Below, in pieces: positions 1 through 44,385 of a stretch of DNA of 44,385 nucleotides (the stretch's first letter is position 1; every line of letters starts with the position of its first letter). Made by a program: the position numbers and the translations under genes. The stretch is taken from the IMG/VR virus record IMGVR_UViG_3300049434_000008, positions 1 through 44,385 of that record; one strand, 5' to 3'. The notes under the pieces were generated by a model, which saw only the letters and a program-made list of their open reading frames with translations, did not search any database and was not told the origin of the DNA. The DNA is from a virus.

Positions 1-96
1 CCGTCCCCGGTCTGCCGAACTCGTCGGCGCCGTTCGGGCCGTGCGACCACAACGAGCTGTACCTGTCCGGCGAAGCAACGTCGGGCGGCGGAACCC
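1..96. repeat. Terminal direct repeat, left copy
   Basis: These 96 bases are identical to 44290-44385. The endolysin reading frame runs straight through the join, so the repeat is most simply the overlap of a circular assembly. A true short terminal repeat is possible but less likely, since it would lie inside a gene. Unique genome length is about 44,289 bp. Confidence 0.95.
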
Positions 97-434
97 TACT
101 CGGAGGACTCTCCATGACCGACGTCCAGACCATCCTCGACCACATCGACGCGAAGGTGAACGACCTCGCCCAGCTGATCGGCGAGCCGACGCACCTCAAG
201 ACGGATTCGCTGCGCAACCACATGCTTGCCATCGAGACCGCGGTCGGCGCCGTGCCCACCAACACCGAACTCGCTACCGCGCTCGGTGCGCTGCCCGGCC
301 AGGACCCCGCGAAACTGGCCGCGCTCCTCACCCCGGTCATCCAGGCCGCGGTCAACGCCCACCCGGCTGGCGGCCCCGACGCCTTGACGCTCGCGCAGGC
401 GATCGCCTCCCACCTCACCCTCACCGCCCACTGA
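1..434 (+). CDS. Endolysin, C-terminal part (continues from 43791)
   Basis: This is the second half of the GH25 endolysin that begins at 43791; the frame enters at base 3 and stops at 434, giving a 310-residue protein across the circular join. The part here holds the end of the lysozyme fold, a Gly-rich linker ('TSGGGTLLGGLS') and then about 105 mostly helical residues without Cys, a plausible cell-wall binding or oligomerisation module. An in-frame ATG at 114 is preceded by GGAGG at 102-106 with a 7-base spacer, so the C-terminal 106 residues could also be made as a separate polypeptide. The next gene, 13 bases on, is holin-like, as expected in a lysis cassette. The C-terminal module matches no family I can name. 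Confidence 0.88.
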   Translation, partial: VPGLPNSSAPFGPCDHNELYLSGEATSGGGTLLGGLSMTDVQTILDHIDAKVNDLAQLIGEPTHLKTDSLRNHMLAIETAVGAVPTNTELATALGALPGQDPAKLAALLTPVIQAAVNAHPAGGPDALTLAQAIASHLTLTAH

Positions 435-1957: not shown

Positions 1958-3217
1958 GTGACGAAAGAGAAGCGTCGGCAGTACGGGACGGGCGCGGTCT
2001 ACCAGCGCAGCAACGGAAGATGGGTCGGCGCCATCGACGCCGGCTACACCGCCCGCGGCACCCGCCGGCAGATCACCGTCTCCTGCTCGAAAGACCTGGG
2101 CGAACCGGAGATCAAACGACTCTTGAAGGCGAAGCTGAAGGAGATCGAGAAGAACGGGCTACCCACCGCTGGCGCGACCGCCCGGACCACCGTCAAAGTC
2201 TGGGCAGAGCAGTGGCTCGAACACCAGTCGACGTCGAAGCGACCGAAGTCGTTCGCCACCGACCGATCCCAGGTCAAGGTGTGGATCATCCCCACCATCG
2301 GCCACAAGCGCCTCGACACCCTCACCCCCGCCGACGTCCGCGCCGTCGCCACCGCTGTCCTGAAAGCCGGGCGCACATCATCCACCGCACTCCGCGCGCA
2401 GGTCGTCCTGACCAAGATGCTGAAAGACGCACTGATCGAAGGCCACCAAGTCCCCCACCGCGTGCTGATGCTCACCGCGCCGGCCGCGTCGAAGTCCGAC
2501 CGTGACGCCGTGGACATGAAAGACGCACTGGCCATGCTGAAGGTCGCCGTGGAGCAACCCGGCGGGTCCAGGTGGGTCGCTGCGTTCCTGCAGGGCATGC
2601 GGCAGGGTGAATGCCTCGGTCTGACGTGGGACGCGGTCAACTTCGACGCTGGGACGGTCGACGTGTCCTGGCAACTGCAAGCGGTCCCCTACCGGCACGG
2701 GTGTATGCGCGACGGCGGCAAGTGGGAGTGCGGGCGGCGGTTCGGCGGCGACTGCCCCGACCGAGCGCTGCGCGTCCCCCACGGCTACGAGTACCGGCAA
2801 CTCGACGGCGCACTATGCCTCGTCCGCCCGAAGACCGAGAAAGGCACACGCCTCATCCCCCTCGTGCCGTGGATGACCGCAGCGCTGACGCAGTGGCGCG
2901 ACATCGCCCCCGCATCGCCGCACGGACTGATCTGGCCCCGCCCCGATGGGCGCCCGCAAACATCCGCCGCAGACAGCAGCGATTGGCAGGCGTTGCAGGA
3001 CACTGCGGACGTGACCGGCCCCGGGCGGAAGTACCTGCTCCACGAAGCCCGGCACACCACCGCGACCCTGCTCCTCGAAAACGGTATCGATCCCGAGGTG
3101 GTGAAGGCCATCCTCGGGCACTCGTCGATCGTCACCAGCCGCGGCTACCAGCACGTCTCCCAGGAGCTTGCGCGCAAGGCTATGGAAGGCATCGCCGGGC
3201 GGCTGCTGCTCAGCTAG
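1958..3217 (+). CDS. int: Tyrosine integrase
   Basis: A 419-residue site-specific recombinase that joins attP to the host tRNA-Thr gene. Residues 1-65 look like the arm-binding domain ('YGTGAVYQRSNGRWVGAI'), 75-165 the SAM-like core-binding domain, and about 185-410 the catalytic domain. Catalytic residues are visible: Arg215 ('GMRQGE'), His362 and Arg365 ('HEARHT'), His388 ('GHSS') and the nucleophile Tyr397 ('SRGYQHVS'). A Cys-containing insertion (about residues 249-286) between box I and box II seems common in actinobacterial phage integrases. It starts with GTG right after the stop of the upstream gene. Its end overlaps the convergent gene at 3210 by 8 bases, so integrase transcription runs against the repressor transcript. 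Confidence 0.95.
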   Translation: MTKEKRRQYGTGAVYQRSNGRWVGAIDAGYTARGTRRQITVSCSKDLGEPEIKRLLKAKLKEIEKNGLPTAGATARTTVKVWAEQWLEHQSTSKRPKSFATDRSQVKVWIIPTIGHKRLDTLTPADVRAVATAVLKAGRTSSTALRAQVVLTKMLKDALIEGHQVPHRVLMLTAPAASKSDRDAVDMKDALAMLKVAVEQPGGSRWVAAFLQGMRQGECLGLTWDAVNFDAGTVDVSWQLQAVPYRHGCMRDGGKWECGRRFGGDCPDRALRVPHGYEYRQLDGALCLVRPKTEKGTRLIPLVPWMTAALTQWRDIAPASPHGLIWPRPDGRPQTSAADSSDWQALQDTADVTGPGRKYLLHEARHTTATLLLENGIDPEVVKAILGHSSIVTSRGYQHVSQELARKAMEGIAGRLLLS

Positions 3218-17593: not shown

Positions 17594-17855
17594 CGACGCG
17601 GTCCAAGCAGCAGCGAAGGCGATCGAGGACCGCATCAGGATGTTCCCGAGCGGGTACCCCCATCTCGGTGGAGTCAGCCTATGGGGTGCGTCCTGCGCGG
17701 AGTTGGCGGTCGTAGCTATTGCCGCTGTCCGTCCTCTGATCGCTGCTGAGGCCCATGCCCTGGTGCTGCGTTTCGCCGGGGTGTACCACGCTGACAGTCC
17801 AGGGGCCATGGCTGACGACATCGCGGCCCGGATTGAACGAGGTGAGGACTTATGA
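17583..17855 (+). CDS. 'MASDD' family protein, copy 1
   Basis: This 90-residue helical protein contains 'AAVRPLIAAEAHALVLRFAG' and 'SPGAMADDIAARIERG'. Its last third is nearly identical in DNA to the gene at 19980 (17721-17839 against 20082-20200, 114 of 119 bases by hand count). It overlaps the upstream gene by 11 bases and the next by ATGA. Function unknown; a small helical scaffold or inhibitor would fit equally. Confidence 0.65.
   Translation: MASDDAVQAAAKAIEDRIRMFPSGYPHLGGVSLWGASCAELAVVAIAAVRPLIAAEAHALVLRFAGVYHADSPGAMADDIAARIERGEDL
17721..17839 (+). repeat. Duplicated coding block A, copy 1
   Basis: It matches 20082-20200 with five substitutions in 119 bases. It encodes the C-terminal part of the 'MASDD' proteins. 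A degraded third trace lies at 21021-21068. Confidence 0.85.
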
Positions 17856-18585: not shown

Positions 18586-18933
18586 ATGGCAAGTGACGAC
18601 GTGAAGATTAAAGCGATCGGCGACGACGGGTTTCGGCTGATCTACATCGACGGCGCTGGGCACCGTCAAGTCGTGGACCTGTACCTGAGGGAGTCGGAGA
18701 CACGCCCCCATTTTTCCGTACTTGGTTCGGTGATGGTCTTTCTTCGGTCGCTGCTGATGGAGATCGACCGCAGCCGTGAATCTGTCACCGCCGTCCGGGC
18801 TGAGCGTGCTGCTGCGTTGGCCGCGCTCCAACGAGTCACCGACCTGTGCGACGAATACGACACGAGTTGCATCTGGACCCCCGACGTCCGTGCTGCTGTT
18901 GCTGTCCCCACAGGGGGCAACACAAATGAGTGA
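18586..18933 (+). CDS. Hypothetical protein with 'MASDD' start
   Basis: The protein has 115 residues from ATG 18586; GTG 18580, overlapping the upstream stop, adds two residues. Its start shares 'ATGGCAAGTGACGACG' with the genes at 17583 and 19980, but the body differs. It has a beta-rich front ('KIKAIGDDGFRLIYIDGAG') and a long helix ('EIDRSRESVTAVRAERAAAL'). The tail resembles phage proteins that count a 'LCDEYD' helix. It ends 'NTNE' because the stop overlaps the next start. Confidence 0.58.
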   Translation: MASDDVKIKAIGDDGFRLIYIDGAGHRQVVDLYLRESETRPHFSVLGSVMVFLRSLLMEIDRSRESVTAVRAERAAALAALQRVTDLCDEYDTSCIWTPDVRAAVAVPTGGNTNE

Positions 18934-19065
18934 CGACGAGAAGCGGGTCATTCCGTGGTGGAAGCCCGAGCCACTCGCGCCTGACTCTCCGATCCTGGCG
19001 AAGATGCGGCTTGCTCTCGGACTGTCCGAACACCCTCGGTCGGGGCTGTCTCCTAACCCGGAGGA
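18918..19065 (+). repeat. Duplicated coding block B, copy 1
   Basis: It matches 22710-22857 with about five substitutions in 148 bases, offset exactly 3,792. It spans the end of one gene and nearly all of the next small gene. Confidence 0.9.
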
Positions 19066-19078
19066 ACCCGAATCATGA
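18926..19078 (+). CDS. 50-residue 'WWKPEP' protein, copy 1
   Basis: This short protein opens 'MSDDEKRVIPWWKPEPLAPD', followed by one helix ('KMRLALGL'). A second copy at 22718 is almost identical. Two retained copies that differ mostly by substitutions argue that it is a real gene. No family recognised. Confidence 0.62.
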   Translation: MSDDEKRVIPWWKPEPLAPDSPILAKMRLALGLSEHPRSGLSPNPEEPES

Positions 19079-19990: not shown

Positions 19991-20225
19991 CGACGCTCTG
20001 GTTGTGGTGGTGCGGGACATTCTAACGACGCACCCACGTAACCCGTACTTCGCTGACTCTGAAACCCCACGGGCCGTGATCGCCGCTGTCCGTCCTCTGA
20101 TCGCTGCTGAGGCCCATGCTCTGGTGCTGCGTTTCGGTGGGGAGTACCACGCTGACAGTCCAGGGGCCATGGCTGACGACATAGCGGCCCGGATTGAACG
20201 GGGGGTCACCGATGGGAGCGTTTAG
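19980..20225 (+). CDS. 'MASDD' family protein, copy 2
   Basis: This 81-residue paralog of the 17583 product has 'AAVRPLIAAEAHALVLRFGG' and 'SPGAMADDIAARIERG' in common and a different N-terminal third. Its last 20 bases overlap a convergent minus-strand gene ending at 20206. Function unknown. Confidence 0.63.
   Translation: MASDDALVVVVRDILTTHPRNPYFADSETPRAVIAAVRPLIAAEAHALVLRFGGEYHADSPGAMADDIAARIERGVTDGSV
20082..20200 (+). repeat. Duplicated coding block A, copy 2
   Basis: Partner of 17721-17839 (114 of 119 bases identical by hand count), 2,361 bases apart, same orientation. Confidence 0.85.
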
Positions 20226-21883: not shown

Positions 21884-22725
21884 GCCTGCCCTACCGTTGG
21901 CGACCCGACGGTGCCCGATGGTCCTCCGAACCGGTCAAAGCTGGTGACATACTCGCCCGCGATCACAAGGCATGGCGCGTCATCGAAGTGAAAGAACGAC
22001 CCGAGGAGTTCTGGACCGACGCCGACCGTAAAGCGATGGCTTCCCGTCGGAACCCGATCAAACCCAGCGCCATCGTCATACGCCCGGTTGAGATCACCCG
22101 CGACGACCCCCGTTCCCGCGACCACGACGTGCACCTCAGGTACGGCGGCGAGATGCAGGGCCGCGAATACCAGTACCTGTTCGTCTACCCCAACAAGCAT
22201 TACCCGGTGTGCGCGGAATGCCACGAGCCGCTGCCGTGCCGGGATCAGATGGCCGAACGGATCTCAACCGCTGCCGGTGTGGACATGGCCCGCTATGAGT
22301 TGGCCGGCGTTTGCCCGGCATGCGGGGAAGTGGTGACCCACCGGCAGAGCAAGCAGACGTGGCCCGACAATGCCGTCATCCCAGCAGGCCCGCCCGTGAC
22401 GTTCCACCTCCGGACGCGATGCAGGCCGTCAGCCGCGAGGTACGAGAAGCAGTGGGTGGCGCTCGACCCGGAACGACGCAGGGCGGTCCTGTCCTGCACA
22501 GGTCACGTGATCAACCACAACGACGGCACCTACCAGTGCACCGAACTGACCGAATGCCCCGGACCCGTCGCGGAGCACACCAGCCACTCCGTGTGCCGCT
22601 GTCCTGACTGCCACGCCCGCGGACCGTTCGACTGCTACCCGTCGCCGAATGCTTTCAACCAAGCACTGTCTACCCCGTCCGTCTCTTCTGGGGTTGCTAC
22701 CGGGGAGGACAACACAAATGAGTGA
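21880..22725 (+). CDS. Large multi-zinc-finger hypothetical protein
   Basis: The protein has 281 residues from GTG 21880, which has an excellent AGAGGAGG site. The first 110 residues are beta-rich with 'VKAGDILARDHKAWRVIEVK'. Cys pairs are scattered through the rest: 'CAECHEPLPC', 'GVCPACGEVV', 'YQCTELTEC' and 'CRCPDCHARG', enough for two or three zinc sites. It resembles a recurring actinophage early protein of unknown job. The end 'EDNTNE' is supplied by duplicated block B. Confidence 0.65.
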   Translation: MSLPYRWRPDGARWSSEPVKAGDILARDHKAWRVIEVKERPEEFWTDADRKAMASRRNPIKPSAIVIRPVEITRDDPRSRDHDVHLRYGGEMQGREYQYLFVYPNKHYPVCAECHEPLPCRDQMAERISTAAGVDMARYELAGVCPACGEVVTHRQSKQTWPDNAVIPAGPPVTFHLRTRCRPSAARYEKQWVALDPERRRAVLSCTGHVINHNDGTYQCTELTECPGPVAEHTSHSVCRCPDCHARGPFDCYPSPNAFNQALSTPSVSSGVATGEDNTNE

Positions 22726-22857
22726 CGACGAGAAGCGGGTCATTCCGTGGTGGAAGCCCGAGCCACTCGCGCCTGACTCTCCGATCCTGGTGAAGATGCG
22801 GCTTGCTCTCGGACTGGCCGAACGCCCTCCGTCGGGGCTGTCTTCTAACCCGGAGGA
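22710..22857 (+). repeat. Duplicated coding block B, copy 2
   Basis: Partner of 18918-19065, about 97% identical by hand count, same orientation. A one-base length difference follows the block and puts the copies in contact with different downstream genes. Confidence 0.9.
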
Positions 22858-22876
22858 CCCGAATGGCGATCGCTGA
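22718..22876 (+). CDS. 52-residue 'WWKPEP' protein, copy 2
   Basis: Nearly identical to the 18926 product for its first 45 residues; the ends differ because of a one-base change near the 3' end. It overlaps the next gene by 14 bases. Function unknown. Confidence 0.6.
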   Translation: MSDDEKRVIPWWKPEPLAPDSPILVKMRLALGLAERPPSGLSSNPEDPNGDR

Positions 22877-25249: not shown

Positions 25250-25546
25250 ATGGCTAAATGGCACATCCACATGGTTGACGGAACCTCCACTCAGGTTGAG
25301 TGCGAGAGCATCGTCGTCGGGGGTAACCCAGGCAATGTCAGGACCGTCCCGGAGGGGTTCCTCGCAGCGGTCCTAGCGTCGGGCGAGACAGCGATGTTCA
25401 TCCCGCGGGAACAGCTGTTGTACGCCAAGAAGATCGACTCAGGGTCCATAAGTGTGCAGGTGCAGGGCGCGAACGGTGTCCAGGTCGGCAAGCAGATCGC
25501 TGCTGAGTTGGAGAGGTATTACAGCAACGGCGGTCGCAGGCCATGA
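25250..25546 (+). CDS. Hypothetical protein with tape-measure-like C-terminus
   Basis: A 98-residue protein. The first 65 residues form a small beta-rich unit ('KWHIHMVDGTSTQVECESIV', 'MFIPREQLLYAKKI'). The last 30 ('ISVQVQGANGVQVGKQIAAE', then 'LERYYSNGG') resemble the very end of the tape measure protein ('VYITVNAGLGTNGPAVGKQI', then 'AAELERYVGGGG'). The DNA is identical over 24 bases (25490-25513 and 39441-39464). It could bind whatever the tape measure tail binds. The start has AAGGACC upstream. Confidence 0.65.
   Translation: MAKWHIHMVDGTSTQVECESIVVGGNPGNVRTVPEGFLAAVLASGETAMFIPREQLLYAKKIDSGSISVQVQGANGVQVGKQIAAELERYYSNGGRRP
25490..25513 (+). repeat. 24-base match to the tape measure gene
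   Basis: Identical to 39441-39464, in the same reading frame, encoding 'KQIAAELE'. Partial similarity continues on both sides at the protein level. Confidence 0.85.
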
Positions 25547-36964: not shown

Positions 36965-39515
36965 GGACGTCACTGCCTCGAAAGCATTCGCGAAGGTAGC
37001 GAAGTCGGCTGAGGTTGCGGACGGGCAGATCAAGAAGGCATTCGGCGGCGGGTCGCTCCTAGCTATCGGTGCGCTCGCTGGTGGTCTGGGTTTGGCCGTG
37101 AAGGGCGCCGCTGACTATCAGACTGCGATGACCCGCCTGGTTACGGCTGGTGGTGAGTCGGAGAAGAACCTCGCGTTGGTGTCCAAGGGTGTTATGGCGG
37201 TGTCGTCCGCGACTGGCACCGGTTTGCATGCTGCTGGTGACGCGATGTACTACATCGAGTCGGCTGGGTTCCACGGCGCTAAGGGCCTCGCGGTGTTGAA
37301 GGCCGCTGCGCAGGGCGCGAAGGTTGAAGGCGCTGACACGAAAGTCGTCGCTGACGCGCTGACCACGGCGTTAACTGACCTCGGCAAGCACGCGGGGCCT
37401 CCTGCTGTGGTCATGTCCCAGTTGGTGGAAACGGTCGCGCACGGCAAACTGACGATGGACGCTCTGGCGGGGTCGCTGCATTCAGTCCTCCCAAACGCGT
37501 CCGCTATCGGGATCTCCTTCGGGCAGGTCGCCGGTGCGATCGCGACGATGACCGCGCAGGGTATCTCAGCGGATCAGGCTACGCAGAACTTGAACCACGC
37601 CATCCTGTCTCTGGCGAACCCGACCGCTGTTCAGACGAAGGCGATGGCCGCGTTCGGGTTGAACGCGTCGGTCGTTGCGAAGAACCTCGGCAAGCAAGGT
37701 CTCACGGGCACGCTTGAAGAGTTGACAAATACCATCACCAGCCACATGGGGCCGGCTGGTTTGACGATCACCAACTCGTTGAACACGAGCAAGATCGCTG
37801 CGGACAAGGTGTCCGAGGGTTATAAGGCGATGGTTCCCGCGGCGCAGAAGTATTTCGACGCGCTGGTGAGCGGTAAGACCATCTCCCAGAGCACCATCGA
37901 CGGGACTAAGGGTCTCACGTTGGCTCAGGATACCCAGATCAAGCAACTGGTGGTGCTGTACAAGCGGGCGAGTGGGTTCTCTGATCTGCTGAAGTCCGGC
38001 AACCCGGATGCCTTGACCTACGCTGCGGCGTTGTCGAAGATGACGGGTGGCGCTACGGGCTTGCAGGTCGCGCTGCACTTGACCGGCGACAACCTGGAGA
38101 CGTTCAAGAAGAACGTCACGGATGTCAGTAAGACGACGGCTGATGCTGGCGGAAACGTCAAGGACTTCGCGGTTCAGCAGCAGACGCTGAACGGGAAACT
38201 CGCGGACTTGAAGGTGTCGGCTAGCAACATGGCCGTTACGTTCGGGACGCAACTGATTCCGGCGCTCACCAGTGCTGCGGACTTCACGTTGAAGCACAAG
38301 ACCGCCATCGAGGCGCTGGTCGGGTCGCTGCTGGCGATGAAGGTCGGCATGATGGGCGTCAGTTTCACTATGGGTGCCATCGCCACAGCGCAGACCGTGT
38401 GGGCCGCGTCGACCGCGGTCATCACCGCTGGCGTGTCCGGGTTGGAGACCGCGTACGTCGCTGCGATGTACGCCATGGAAGTGGCGACGGGCCCGGTTGG
38501 TATCGCGATCGGTGTTGCTGCTGCCGCTATAGCGATCGGAACGAAGGGCTTCGGTCTGTTCGGCGGTTCCGCGCATGCACAGATTAAGCCTGTGCAGGCG
38601 TTGACGGACGCGATCACCGCTGATGGTGACGCTGTTGGGAAGCTGACCACCGCGCAACTGAACAACACTCTGCAGTCCAAGGGCGCGTACGACGCTGGTA
38701 TCAAACTCGGTTTGAGCCAGCGGACGATCTTGCAGGCTGCGTTGGGTAACGCCGCGGCGCAGAAGGAGGTCCGGGCGGCTACGGATGCTGCGACCAACGC
38801 AGTGAAGAATGCTACGTCGGCTGACCACATTCACCGGTCAGGTATCGGTGATGTTACGAAGGCGCAGAAGGACGCTAAGGCCGCGGCTGATCTGCTGAAC
38901 GGGTCGGTGAACACGCTGACGGGCCAGTTGGGTGCGTCGAAGCATGCCGCGGACAACGTGGCCGCAGCATTGCGGGGGATACCTAAGTCGATCACTCCGC
39001 GTATTGCGCTCCTAAACGCACAGACCGTCGAAGCGCAGATTGACTATCTGACCCGGTCGCGGTCGATCCAAGTTTCGCTGCAGTCGCAGAACTCGAACAC
39101 CAAACTGGCCGCGCAGTTGGCGAACTCTCCGCTCCACCCGGCCACCGGGGGCCTATTGATTGGTCCTGGTTCTGGGACTTCGGACTCGATCCCAGCGATG
39201 GTCTCCAACGGCGAGTATGTCGTGAACGCGGCGGCTACAGCGAAATTCCGGCCATTCCTGGACGCGATCAACGGCAGCGGGGTCCACCGCGCACCGGGAT
39301 ATGCCACGGGTGGCGCGGTAGGCGTTTCGGGTGGGAATCAGTCGAGGTTCGTGACGAACTGGCAGAACGCGTCACGCGGCGGCGGGGATGTGTACATCAC
39401 CGTCAACGCTGGTTTGGGCACCAACGGGCCGGCGGTGGGGAAGCAGATCGCTGCTGAGTTGGAGCGGTACGTCGGCGGCGGCGGCAAAGTCAAGATCGCT
39501 CGGGGCGTGAACTAG
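36927..39515 (+). CDS. Tape measure protein
   Basis: An 862-residue protein, the largest in the genome, setting tail length. It starts at GTG behind GGGGGG. Residues 40-60 are hydrophobic ('GGGSLLAIGALAGGLGLAVK'). The 'TAMTRLVTAGGESEKNL' and 'GISFGQVAGAIATMTAQGIS' segments match the TP901-type tape measure core. A second hydrophobic stretch lies at about residues 465-535. The last 120 residues contain 'GPGSGTSDSIPAMVSNGEYV', usual in this family. The final 'VGKQIAAELERY' is shared with the 25250 product. It overlaps the chaperone long form. Confidence 0.93.
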   Translation: MASKSLSFLLFGEDVTASKAFAKVAKSAEVADGQIKKAFGGGSLLAIGALAGGLGLAVKGAADYQTAMTRLVTAGGESEKNLALVSKGVMAVSSATGTGLHAAGDAMYYIESAGFHGAKGLAVLKAAAQGAKVEGADTKVVADALTTALTDLGKHAGPPAVVMSQLVETVAHGKLTMDALAGSLHSVLPNASAIGISFGQVAGAIATMTAQGISADQATQNLNHAILSLANPTAVQTKAMAAFGLNASVVAKNLGKQGLTGTLEELTNTITSHMGPAGLTITNSLNTSKIAADKVSEGYKAMVPAAQKYFDALVSGKTISQSTIDGTKGLTLAQDTQIKQLVVLYKRASGFSDLLKSGNPDALTYAAALSKMTGGATGLQVALHLTGDNLETFKKNVTDVSKTTADAGGNVKDFAVQQQTLNGKLADLKVSASNMAVTFGTQLIPALTSAADFTLKHKTAIEALVGSLLAMKVGMMGVSFTMGAIATAQTVWAASTAVITAGVSGLETAYVAAMYAMEVATGPVGIAIGVAAAAIAIGTKGFGLFGGSAHAQIKPVQALTDAITADGDAVGKLTTAQLNNTLQSKGAYDAGIKLGLSQRTILQAALGNAAAQKEVRAATDAATNAVKNATSADHIHRSGIGDVTKAQKDAKAAADLLNGSVNTLTGQLGASKHAADNVAAALRGIPKSITPRIALLNAQTVEAQIDYLTRSRSIQVSLQSQNSNTKLAAQLANSPLHPATGGLLIGPGSGTSDSIPAMVSNGEYVVNAAATAKFRPFLDAINGSGVHRAPGYATGGAVGVSGGNQSRFVTNWQNASRGGGDVYITVNAGLGTNGPAVGKQIAAELERYVGGGGKVKIARGVN
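39441..39464 (+). repeat. 24-base match to the 25250 gene
   Basis: Identical to 25490-25513 and in the same frame, near the 3' end of the tape measure gene. Confidence 0.85.
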
Positions 39516-42278: not shown

Positions 42279-42497
42279 ATGAGCGACCAGACCCCCAACA
42301 TCCTCGCGGGCGGGGCGCTGCTGGTGTCGACCATCACCGGCTGGTTCGCCATCCGTAGCCAAGTCCGCAAAGACCGTGACGCGGCAGCCAAAGTGATCGA
42401 AGAGCGCGTGCGGAAAGAGATCAGGGACGAGAACCGATTGAAGGAACTCGAAGACGAGATCCAGCGCCGCGACAACGAGCAGGAGGGCCACAAGTGA
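42279..42497 (+). CDS. Membrane-anchored coiled-coil protein, second holin candidate
   Basis: A 72-residue protein. One membrane segment at about residues 7-24 ('ILAGGALLVSTITGWFAI'), then a strongly charged helix ('QVRKDRDAAAKVIEERVRKE') to the end. This topology (one pass plus coiled coil) fits small holins or spanin-like/antiholin factors. AGGAGGGG upstream. The 66-base gap before it holds only a 14-codon frame with no visible meaning. Confidence 0.62.
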   Translation: MSDQTPNILAGGALLVSTITGWFAIRSQVRKDRDAAAKVIEERVRKEIRDENRLKELEDEIQRRDNEQEGHK

Positions 42498-43249
42498 CTT
42501 CCCAGTCAGCAGAGACTGAGATTCCGAAGGCTGTATTGCGACCGCGGACCGAGCGGTTGGTGTGGATGCTGTTCGCCCTTGTCGTGGCCATCGCTTTGGT
42601 CGTCGCGTTCCTGTTCGTGAAACTCGGGCAGGCCAACAGCACCGCGCATTCGGCCGATAAGGCGGGCAAGGCGAACGCAGCGGGACTGGCCAGCGCTAAC
42701 TCGAAGCTGATCAAGGCTGGGCAGGCACCAGTACCTACACCGACATCTCCTGGCGCTGTGACGGTCACGGTGACCGCGCCACCGCCCATCGTGGTCGGCC
42801 CGTCGAACCTGCAGGTATCCGCAGCTGTCGCCGTTTACTGCGCGCAGCACAGCGGGTGCGCCAGCGGCCCAACCGCGGCCCAAGTCGCTCAAGCTGTAGC
42901 TACTTACTGCACCAGCAACGGGCAGTGCAAGGGCACAGTCGGGAAACCCGGTGCGACGGGTTCGGCGGGCACGTCCGGTGCGCCGGGCAGGGACGGCCAG
43001 AACGCGACCCCCGATCAGGTCGCCGCCGCTGTCGTGTCGTACTGCTCGACCAAGGACAACTGCCAGGGCCCGGCTGGTGTGTCGGGTGCTGCTGGCGCGG
43101 CAGGTTCGGACGGACGCGACGGTTACCCGCCGCTCGGCTTCACCTTCACGATCAACAGTCCGCCGCTCGGTGACACCAACTACTCCTGCACCCCCGACAC
43201 CACCCCCGCGGCTGGGACGCAACCCCACTACTCCTGCGTGAAGGAATAG
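42494..43249 (+). CDS. Membrane-anchored collagen-like protein
   Basis: A 251-residue protein. Residues 22-45 are a membrane segment ('VWMLFALVVAIALVVAFLFV') preceded by a basic stretch, which should leave the rest outside the membrane. A Pro/Thr/Val linker follows. Three repeats of about 30-60 residues carry 'AVYCAQHSGC', 'ATYCTSNGQC' and 'VSYCSTKDNC'. The second and third are each followed by Gly-x-y runs ('GKPGATGSAGTSGAPGRDGQ' and 'GPAGVSGAAGAAGSDGRDG'). The end has two more Cys. A collagen-like stalk with Cys staples on a membrane anchor is unusual between tail and lysis genes. Coupled to the 42279 gene by overlap. Confidence 0.75.
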   Translation: MTSQSAETEIPKAVLRPRTERLVWMLFALVVAIALVVAFLFVKLGQANSTAHSADKAGKANAAGLASANSKLIKAGQAPVPTPTSPGAVTVTVTAPPPIVVGPSNLQVSAAVAVYCAQHSGCASGPTAAQVAQAVATYCTSNGQCKGTVGKPGATGSAGTSGAPGRDGQNATPDQVAAAVVSYCSTKDNCQGPAGVSGAAGAAGSDGRDGYPPLGFTFTINSPPLGDTNYSCTPDTTPAAGTQPHYSCVKE

Positions 43250-43251
43250 CC

Positions 43252-43794
43252 ATGCTCACGATCACCGACCTGGACGAGTTCATGGTCACCGCGCCACCAG
43301 TCGGCAGCCTCGAGATGGTCCGCAGCTTCTACTCACCGATCGACAAAGTCCACGAGGTACTGAAAGCCATCATCGGATCGGCGCAGCACTCGATCGTGAT
43401 CAGCATGTTCGGCTACGACGACGACGAACTCGCGGCGATGCTCGACACTGCGTTGGGGAACCCCCGCATGTATGTGCAGATCACCCTCGACTCATCCCAG
43501 GCGGGCGGGGTGCATGAGAAGGCGCTGCTGACGAAGTACGCGCACACGATGACTGGCAACTCGGTCGCGATCGGTCGCTCGGAGAAGGGCGCGATCGTGC
43601 ACCGCAAGATGGTCATCGTTGACGGCTTGTGGTGGATCGGCGGGTCGACGAACTGGTCGGTCAGTGGTGAAACGCTGCAGGACAACGAACTGACGGTCGT
43701 CAGGGACGCTCTGCATTGCACGAAAGCGCGAAGCATCCTCGACATCGCCCACGACCACATCCTGTCCGTGATGGCCAAGAAGGCAGCGGCATGA
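43252..43794 (+). CDS. Phospholipase D-like (HKD) protein
   Basis: A 180-residue protein with a single HKD motif: His117, Lys119 and Asp124 in 'IVHRKMVIVDGLWWIGGSTN', with the following Ser132/Asn134. The front 'YSPIDKVHEVLKAIIGSAQH' and 'SIVISMFGYDDDELAAML' is the usual first strand-helix unit. One HKD per chain means it should act as a dimer, like Nuc-type nucleases. No signal peptide. It could be a nuclease or a phosphodiesterase acting on membrane lipid. It starts two bases past the collagen-like gene and overlaps the endolysin start. Confidence 0.85.
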   Translation: MLTITDLDEFMVTAPPVGSLEMVRSFYSPIDKVHEVLKAIIGSAQHSIVISMFGYDDDELAAMLDTALGNPRMYVQITLDSSQAGGVHEKALLTKYAHTMTGNSVAIGRSEKGAIVHRKMVIVDGLWWIGGSTNWSVSGETLQDNELTVVRDALHCTKARSILDIAHDHILSVMAKKAAA

Positions 43795-44385
43795 CCGTCT
43801 CCGTGGATGTCTCCGAGTTCCAGGTGGGGGTGAACGACTCCTACCCGCACCGCTGGTTCAGCTTCCGCGCGTTCGACGGGACGTACACCGACCATAAGCT
43901 CGGGAACAACCTCGCGTGGGCTAAGTCGGCGAAGGCCCGCGGGAAGATCGACGGCTACACCGTCTACTTCGTGTGGCGACCGGGTGTCAACAACATCGCC
44001 CGCCTCGACGAGTTGGGCATACCGCGTGACTGCGTGATCATGATCGACCTCGAATCGTGGGAAGGTCAGATCACCGGGAACCGGTCGGGCGAACTGAATG
44101 CCGTCGCTGACCAGATCGCGACCCGGCAAGGCTCACGAAGCCGCGTCTGGGGGTACGCCAACCGCGGCGACTACGGGTCACTCTGGCCCACCCGCCCCGC
44201 TTGGCTGGGGCTGATCCTCGCCTCCTACGGCGGCTCGAGACCATCCATGCCCAACCTCATCGGCTGGCAGTACACCAACGGCCAATACACCGTCCCCGGT
44301 CTGCCGAACTCGTCGGCGCCGTTCGGGCCGTGCGACCACAACGAGCTGTACCTGTCCGGCGAAGCAACGTCGGGCGGCGGAACCC
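43791..44385 (+). CDS. Endolysin, GH25 lysozyme domain (continues at 1-434)
   Basis: N-terminal 198 residues of the 310-residue endolysin. The GH25 fold is shown by 'SVDVSEFQ' with Asp6, 'YTVYFVWRPG', the catalytic 'MIDLESWEG' with Asp86 and Glu88, 'VWGYANRGDYGSLW' and the closing 'LIGWQYTNGQYTVPGLP'. It cleaves the glycan strand of peptidoglycan. No signal peptide, so release depends on a holin. The gene is cut only by the linear display of a circular genome. ATGA overlap with the phospholipase D-like gene. Confidence 0.92.
   Translation, partial: MTVSVDVSEFQVGVNDSYPHRWFSFRAFDGTYTDHKLGNNLAWAKSAKARGKIDGYTVYFVWRPGVNNIARLDELGIPRDCVIMIDLESWEGQITGNRSGELNAVADQIATRQGSRSRVWGYANRGDYGSLWPTRPAWLGLILASYGGSRPSMPNLIGWQYTNGQYTVPGLPNSSAPFGPCDHNELYLSGEATSGGGT
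44290..44385. repeat. Terminal direct repeat, right copy
   Basis: Identical to 1-96; see the left copy. Removing one copy gives an intact endolysin frame. Confidence 0.95.

Follow-up and report, generated by a model that had tools for sequence, protein, structure and literature searches.

A candidate internal translation start for the C-terminal domain of a GH25 endolysin and its conservation among actinobacterial phages

Results and Discussion

The endolysin gene of the virus studied here, a 44,385-nt stretch of DNA analysed as a whole and referred to as the window, is likely to encode two chains, a 310-aa enzyme and a 106-aa tail, that associate with each other and thereby multiply the wall-binding modules. 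It is highly probable that the internal ribosome site preceding the tail is used in vivo; given its use, association of both chains is quite probable. In-frame internal starts in endolysins are already known; what is new is a broad clade of actinophage endolysins in which, as far as sequences can tell, a start placed before the C-terminal domain appears to be general.

Organization of the endolysin gene

The ends of the contig form a perfect 96-nt direct repeat (positions 1-96, identical to 44290-44385), which indicates that the contig is circular, its ends joining within the endolysin gene. The full gene (933 nt, 310 aa) is 43791-44289 joined to 1-434 and lies on the plus strand, as do the repeat, the elements inside the gene and just before it, and the holin gene named below. 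In the linear record its 5' part, recognised by its ATG start, its frame and the circular join, occupies 43791-44385, and the stretch 1-434 is its 3' half only, comprising the GH25 end, the linker (about 71-113), the C-terminal domain and the stop; frame 3-434 is open up to a TGA at 432-434.

The encoded protein consists of a GH25 domain (about residues 1-187), a Gly-rich linker and a tail (residues 205-310). Between the GH25 end and Met205 of the 310-aa endolysin the linker reads GEATSGGGTLLGGLS, and the codon of Met205 (ATG, 114-116) is preceded at a spacing of 7 by GGAGG (102-106), which sits within Gly-Gly codons of the linker and was taken as an internal Shine-Dalgarno element from its sequence, strength and conservation. 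The embedded in-frame ORF (114-434) is predicted to yield a free C-terminal polypeptide of 106 residues and 10.8 kDa that begins at the helix MTDVQTILDHIDAK, and it is very likely that this second chain is made. That a real gene boundary combined with a sequencing error lies here instead was considered and rejected, as essentially every relative read keeps an open frame across the junction. The initial annotation had given the ATG at 114, the GGAGG, the 7-base spacing and the 106 residues, and all these numbers proved correct when checked. The full-length start has AAGG (43780-43783), a weak Shine-Dalgarno match.

Among annotated proteins the product is closest to lysin A of Mycobacterium and Gordonia phages, with 30-48% identity over the catalytic part in 483 records. 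The gene matches the PHROG endolysin family at 2e-14 and Pfam GH25 below threshold (E 0.029), and a profile built from an alignment of 15 relatives hits two phage GH25 lysozymes of solved structure, 4krt and 4kru, at 1e-8. Catalytic-type residues D86-x-E88 are encoded at about 44046-44054, D86 and E88 being invariant in the 15 relatives. Judged by this homology and the conserved D-x-E, the catalytic domain is a GH25 muramidase, and the layout is that of a single-catalytic-domain endolysin with one C-terminal domain behind the enzyme. Searches with the full protein returned only GH25 matches in plasmids and none in bacterial genomes.

A small membrane protein gene with its own AGGAG site, a probable holin (448-657; phrog membrane protein, 1.8e-7), lies downstream, and a PLD-like gene and tail genes lie upstream, so that the structural genes end in a lysis cassette. 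Arthrobacter phages have a similar large terminase, and the host is presumably an actinobacterium. The PLD-like protein (43252-43794; PF13091, 3.7e-11) has 180 aa and an HKD motif (HRKMVIVDGLWWIGGSTN), and the 3' end of its gene overlaps the endolysin start. A phospholipase or nuclease is unusual in a lysis cassette, and the protein might act on the host membrane. Directly upstream of it is a gene for a collagen-like, probably membrane-anchored protein with Cys-containing repeats (42494-43249). Shortly after the lysis genes, a tyrosine-type integrase-like ORF (1958-3217) suggests that the phage is probably temperate. The small-gene region holds two pairs of direct repeats, 17718-17842 with 20079-20203 (125 nt at 94%) and 18915-19068 with 22707-22860 (154 nt at 95%), the latter containing GGAGG-ATG sites, and 69 nt at the end of the tape-measure-like gene (25465-25533) recur before the terminase region (39416-39484, 75% identity).

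Strength of the internal site within the window

By a simple stacking count the Shine-Dalgarno match of the internal site (-10.9 kcal/mol) is stronger than that of the gene's own start (-6.3 kcal/mol). The initial annotation had the short chain made in excess and in complex with the full enzyme; the stronger internal match hints at the excess, and both features may be expected by analogy with CTP1L, Lys170 and LysP7951. The RNA around the start is slightly more open than in synonymous shuffles (about 5% of shuffles are as open or more) and the Shine-Dalgarno element itself is not, so that RNA accessibility of the start is neutral.

We had expected the number of such motifs in the window to support the start, and it did not: GGAGG-N5-9-ATG occurs 10 times against 7.5 ± 2.9 expected. 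In 13% of trials, synonymous shuffling within the gene produced a site at least as good (p = 0.13), and GGA, the Gly codon needed for the site, makes up 30 of 503 Gly codons here (6%). Since the motif count is near expectation and the shuffle test gives p 0.13, the site is not beyond chance in the window alone, and the decision rests on the relatives. Both figures are what would be seen if a GGA-GGN pair in a Gly linker, followed by Met, mimicked an unused ribosome site by coincidence. Against this reading, which we consider very improbable, stand the position-specific enrichment in two samples of relatives, the restriction of Leu/Met/Val exchanges to start codons, and the formation of the motif by linkers that are not made of Gly, as detailed in the next section.

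Conservation of the candidate internal start

Two samples that share some phages (e.g. the Gordonia cluster) were collected through different ends of the protein. For the first, annotated phages, plasmids and viral contigs supplied 97 GH25 lysin genes, which fell into 48 clusters at 70% identity; such clusters are not fully independent phylogenetically. A tail domain is present in 43 of the 48, the window included. A strong site was defined as an in-frame match of at least AGGAG or GGAGG, a spacing of 4-11 and then ATG, GTG or TTG, within 45 codons from the GH25 end; the energy threshold and the 45-codon span are our own choice and were the same for shuffles and controls. Such a site lies just past the catalytic domain in 28 of the 43 non-redundant actinophage GH25 lysin clusters and is missing in 15, against 9.1 ± 2.3 of 43 and a maximum of 17 in 1000 synonymous shuffles, and against 5 of 134 control windows of the same length taken within GH25. 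The offsets concentrate at 19-27 codons and the spacings at 7, and the position of the internal start coincides with the start of the tail domain in relatives.

The second sample was gathered through one C-terminal-domain family (motif S-D-x-K-D-[IV]-R-[EQ]-Q-L ... G-W-x-Q-L-G), whatever the upstream enzyme, and comprised 28 clusters. This family occurs behind Amidase_2, M15, M23 + GH25, C39 + GH19 and Rv2525c-like glycoside hydrolase heads. In 20 of the 28 clusters a strong site lies at the first helix of the tail (9.8 ± 2.0 after shuffling, maximum 16 in 300 shuffles), and in 25 the site there is at least moderate (17.3 after shuffling, maximum 22). Amidases with the same tail family and the site include those of Coeur, GMA5, Dinger, P1201, Colleen, Neville and Kudefre. 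The initial annotation had named a lack of conservation of the ribosome site in relatives as one finding that would refute its claim of an internal start for the C-terminal domain; the site is conserved above all shuffles in both samples, and the claim stands with strong support.

The motif is encoded by differing linkers (GGLS, GGTT, QEDD, TGGDD, EEDP and KKGGTA), for example GGLS before Met in the window, GGTT before Met in Gordonia phages, QEDDP before Leu in mycobacteriophages, QEDDD before Met in a Prescottella plasmid prophage and KKGGTA before Val in SketchMex, and its GGAG occupies two codon phases (21 and 7). That differing peptides and codon phases build the same site indicates that nucleotides are kept, not residues. 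Gordonia relatives point the same way at the codon level, the rare Gly codon GGA being used in 17 of 17 members that keep Gly at the site. In tails of the mycobacteriophage type, the first position of an [LM]SAL column is Leu or Met, and Val once, Met and Val being encoded by ATG and GTG; the Leu codon there is TTG in 16 of 16 cases, and TTG accounts for 79 of 774 Leu codons (about 10%) in those genes. The restriction to TTG, ATG and GTG suggests that this column behaves as a start codon and not as a residue.

These silent-site signatures also bear on the idea that the catalytic part and the tail were once two genes, and that an old start and its ribosome site persist functionless after their fusion. 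The tail is indeed a mobile module found behind many catalytic domains, as such an origin would have it; a fossil, however, would decay at silent sites, and the site survives changes in linker peptide, codon phase and start codon, while the partner peptidases of split-lysin cassettes carry copies of the same tail without the site. We regard a functionless remnant as scarcely credible.

The site is uncommon behind proline-rich linkers, being present in 2 of 10 such clusters as opposed to 26 of the 33 whose linkers are of other kinds (Fisher p 0.0013), and lysins with LysM or LGFP tails and tailless plasmid GH25 copies (Gordonia JH63, Tsukamurella) are without it. In two-lysin cassettes with the same tail, the GH25 or amidase partner has the site and the peptidase or C39 partner lacks a good one. 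Gordonia phage cassettes (L004 1782-3406, L012, L013, L109 and L112) contain two lysin genes with homologous tails and an internal start in the second gene only, a candidate shared subunit. Gene 23 of Angelique (L004 2495-3406) is annotated as an amidase, yet by homology it belongs to GH25, as does the corresponding gene in relatives, and its label is probably a misannotation.

The only near-identical relative, on a contig (L003), is a GH25 protein 98% identical over residues 1-208, with DNA almost identical around the start; the contig stops 10 nt past the ATG, and a search of that record gave no continuation. Because of this early end and the near-identical DNA it adds little as evidence of conservation. 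Its near-identical GH25 gene has a GTG start and a different sequence directly upstream (2400-2510), which suggests a recent module exchange at the lysin start.

The C-terminal domain

Searches of phages and viral contigs with the 106-aa tail by itself gave no relative, and none of the collections searched contained a homologue of its full length. Over its first residues, MTDVQTILDHIDAK, the tail is similar to MADIQ[KR]ILDHIDRK, which stands at the internal start of three lysins (L149, L151 and L152). The similarity spans about 14-20 residues within the first helix (phmmer E 0.03); past this helix, a profile comparison between the window tail and the common tail family was insignificant. Because the match is short and weak, the window tail may be a diverged member of the family, or another kind of helical module may occupy its place. 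Single-sequence AlphaFold2 gave a low-confidence, all-helical model of five helices at pLDDT 48, and a model of the Gordonia-type tail (pLDDT 70) matched no PDB fold or sequence. Residues 205-310 of the window protein matched no catalytic family and no known wall-binding family, and the related Gordonia tail matched no known wall-binding family by sequence or fold. The tail domain may bind the wall, as the precedents would suggest (PMC4777826, PMC7098653, PMC9430671).

Comparison with known two-chain endolysins

The clostridial phage lysin CTP1L carries a GH25 head. In CTP1L, CS74L and CD27L, much as is proposed here, a ribosome site in the linker and an internal ATG or GTG give a truncated wall-binding domain (PMC4777826); the site is GGAGG or a variant of it, GGAGG being that of most CTP1L-like lysins, and a complex is formed (PMC4777826, Dunne et al. 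2015). Their complex and wall-binding domain have been solved or measured, whereas the tail here is predicted to be helical and matches no known wall-binding family. LysP7951 of Streptococcus thermophilus phage P7951 likewise has a single Glyco_hydro_25 domain and an unrecognised C-terminal domain (PMC9430671, Pinto et al. 2022); its internal Met209 gives residues 209-310 of about 10.8 kDa, compared with Met205 of 310 and 10.8 kDa here. Its host group differs from that of the present phage, and its expression, a 1:5 complex and the need for the short chain, only the complex being lytic (PMC9430671), have been measured, whereas for the present gene a second chain and a complex are predicted. 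Lys170 and LysIME-EF1 of enterococcal phages (PMC7098653) also make a full-length and a C-terminal chain from one gene through an internal start; they have different catalytic domains and measured 1:3 complexes (summarised in PMC9430671). That some endolysins make a second, shorter chain from an internal start and assemble as hetero-oligomers, which the initial annotation had taken as known, is thus established (PMC4777826, PMC7098653, PMC9430671).

Among actinophages, Ms6 LysA (Lysin384/Lysin241; PMC3111421, Catalao et al. 2011) and Pollywog LysA (PMC9430671) share with the present gene an in-frame internal start with a good ribosome site. There, however, the start precedes a catalytic domain and the short chain is itself an enzyme, whereas here it follows the only catalytic domain, and a short chain with a catalytic domain, as in the Ms6 LysA type, is not found. 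A start before a catalytic domain is what the experimental and listed actinophage cases show (Ms6, Corndog, Pollywog and the table of Catalao et al.). The mycobacteriophage Lysin A proteins with C1 or C2 domains (Payne and Hatfull 2012, PMC3314691) resemble the window protein in having GH25 and a suspected wall-binding C-terminal domain, and many relatives of this type carry the internal start; PMC3314691 treats internal starts only near codon 144-147, at the N-terminal junction, not before the C-terminal domain. Pinto et al. predicted internal starts in about half of the endolysins from phages of Gram-positive bacteria and mycobacteria. For a start before the C-terminal domain of an actinophage lysin we found no paper in the open-access literature searched; the supplements of Pinto et al. 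may list some of these genes as predictions.

Proposed model

It is proposed that translation from 43791 would yield the complete 310-aa GH25 muramidase, C-terminal domain included, and that ribosomes starting at ATG 114, through the GGAGG in the Gly linker, would make the 106-aa C-terminal domain alone. The free domain would most likely use its helices to associate with its counterpart in the full enzyme, and the assembled lysin would combine one or few catalytic heads with several wall-binding modules.

Alternatively, the internal start is used and the free chain acts alone, occupying wall sites, tuning lysis timing or protecting uninfected cells. Such a lone binder is conceivable as the tail begins cleanly at Met; the two chains of Ms6 both contribute to the timing of lysis (PMC3111421), and the work of Pinto et al. 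showed no interaction in the case of LysJavan488 (PMC9430671). The known non-interacting or untested cases, however, have the start between two catalytic domains, an arrangement for which no heteromultimers have been described among the cases reviewed by Pinto et al. Every case shown to form a complex combines a single catalytic domain with a start ahead of the wall domain, the only layout for which heteromultimers are described there and the layout found here (PMC9430671). A free chain that acts without a complex therefore seems rather unlikely, and we prefer the model in which both chains associate.

The free tail may even be a general, separately expressed lysis subunit in actinobacterial phages, so that in two-lysin cassettes the product of one gene could join both enzymes into a mixed complex cutting sugar and peptide bonds; we hold this extension to be doubtful.

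Implications

The recurrence of the site across endolysins of many actinobacterial phages suggests that a trick proven elsewhere is probably general here too. For annotation, a rule may be drawn that an embedded start is to be looked for just past the catalytic domain, mainly where a short linker leads into a small helical tail. Descriptions and engineering of endolysins from mycobacteria-related phages usually treat them as single chains. Should most of them depend on a second chain from an internal start, that chain would go missing unnoticed from constructs in which codons are optimised or Met is mutated. Such a loss could, if the model is true, account for the weakness of recombinant enzymes, and the real quaternary structure of a large enzyme group would be open to direct test.
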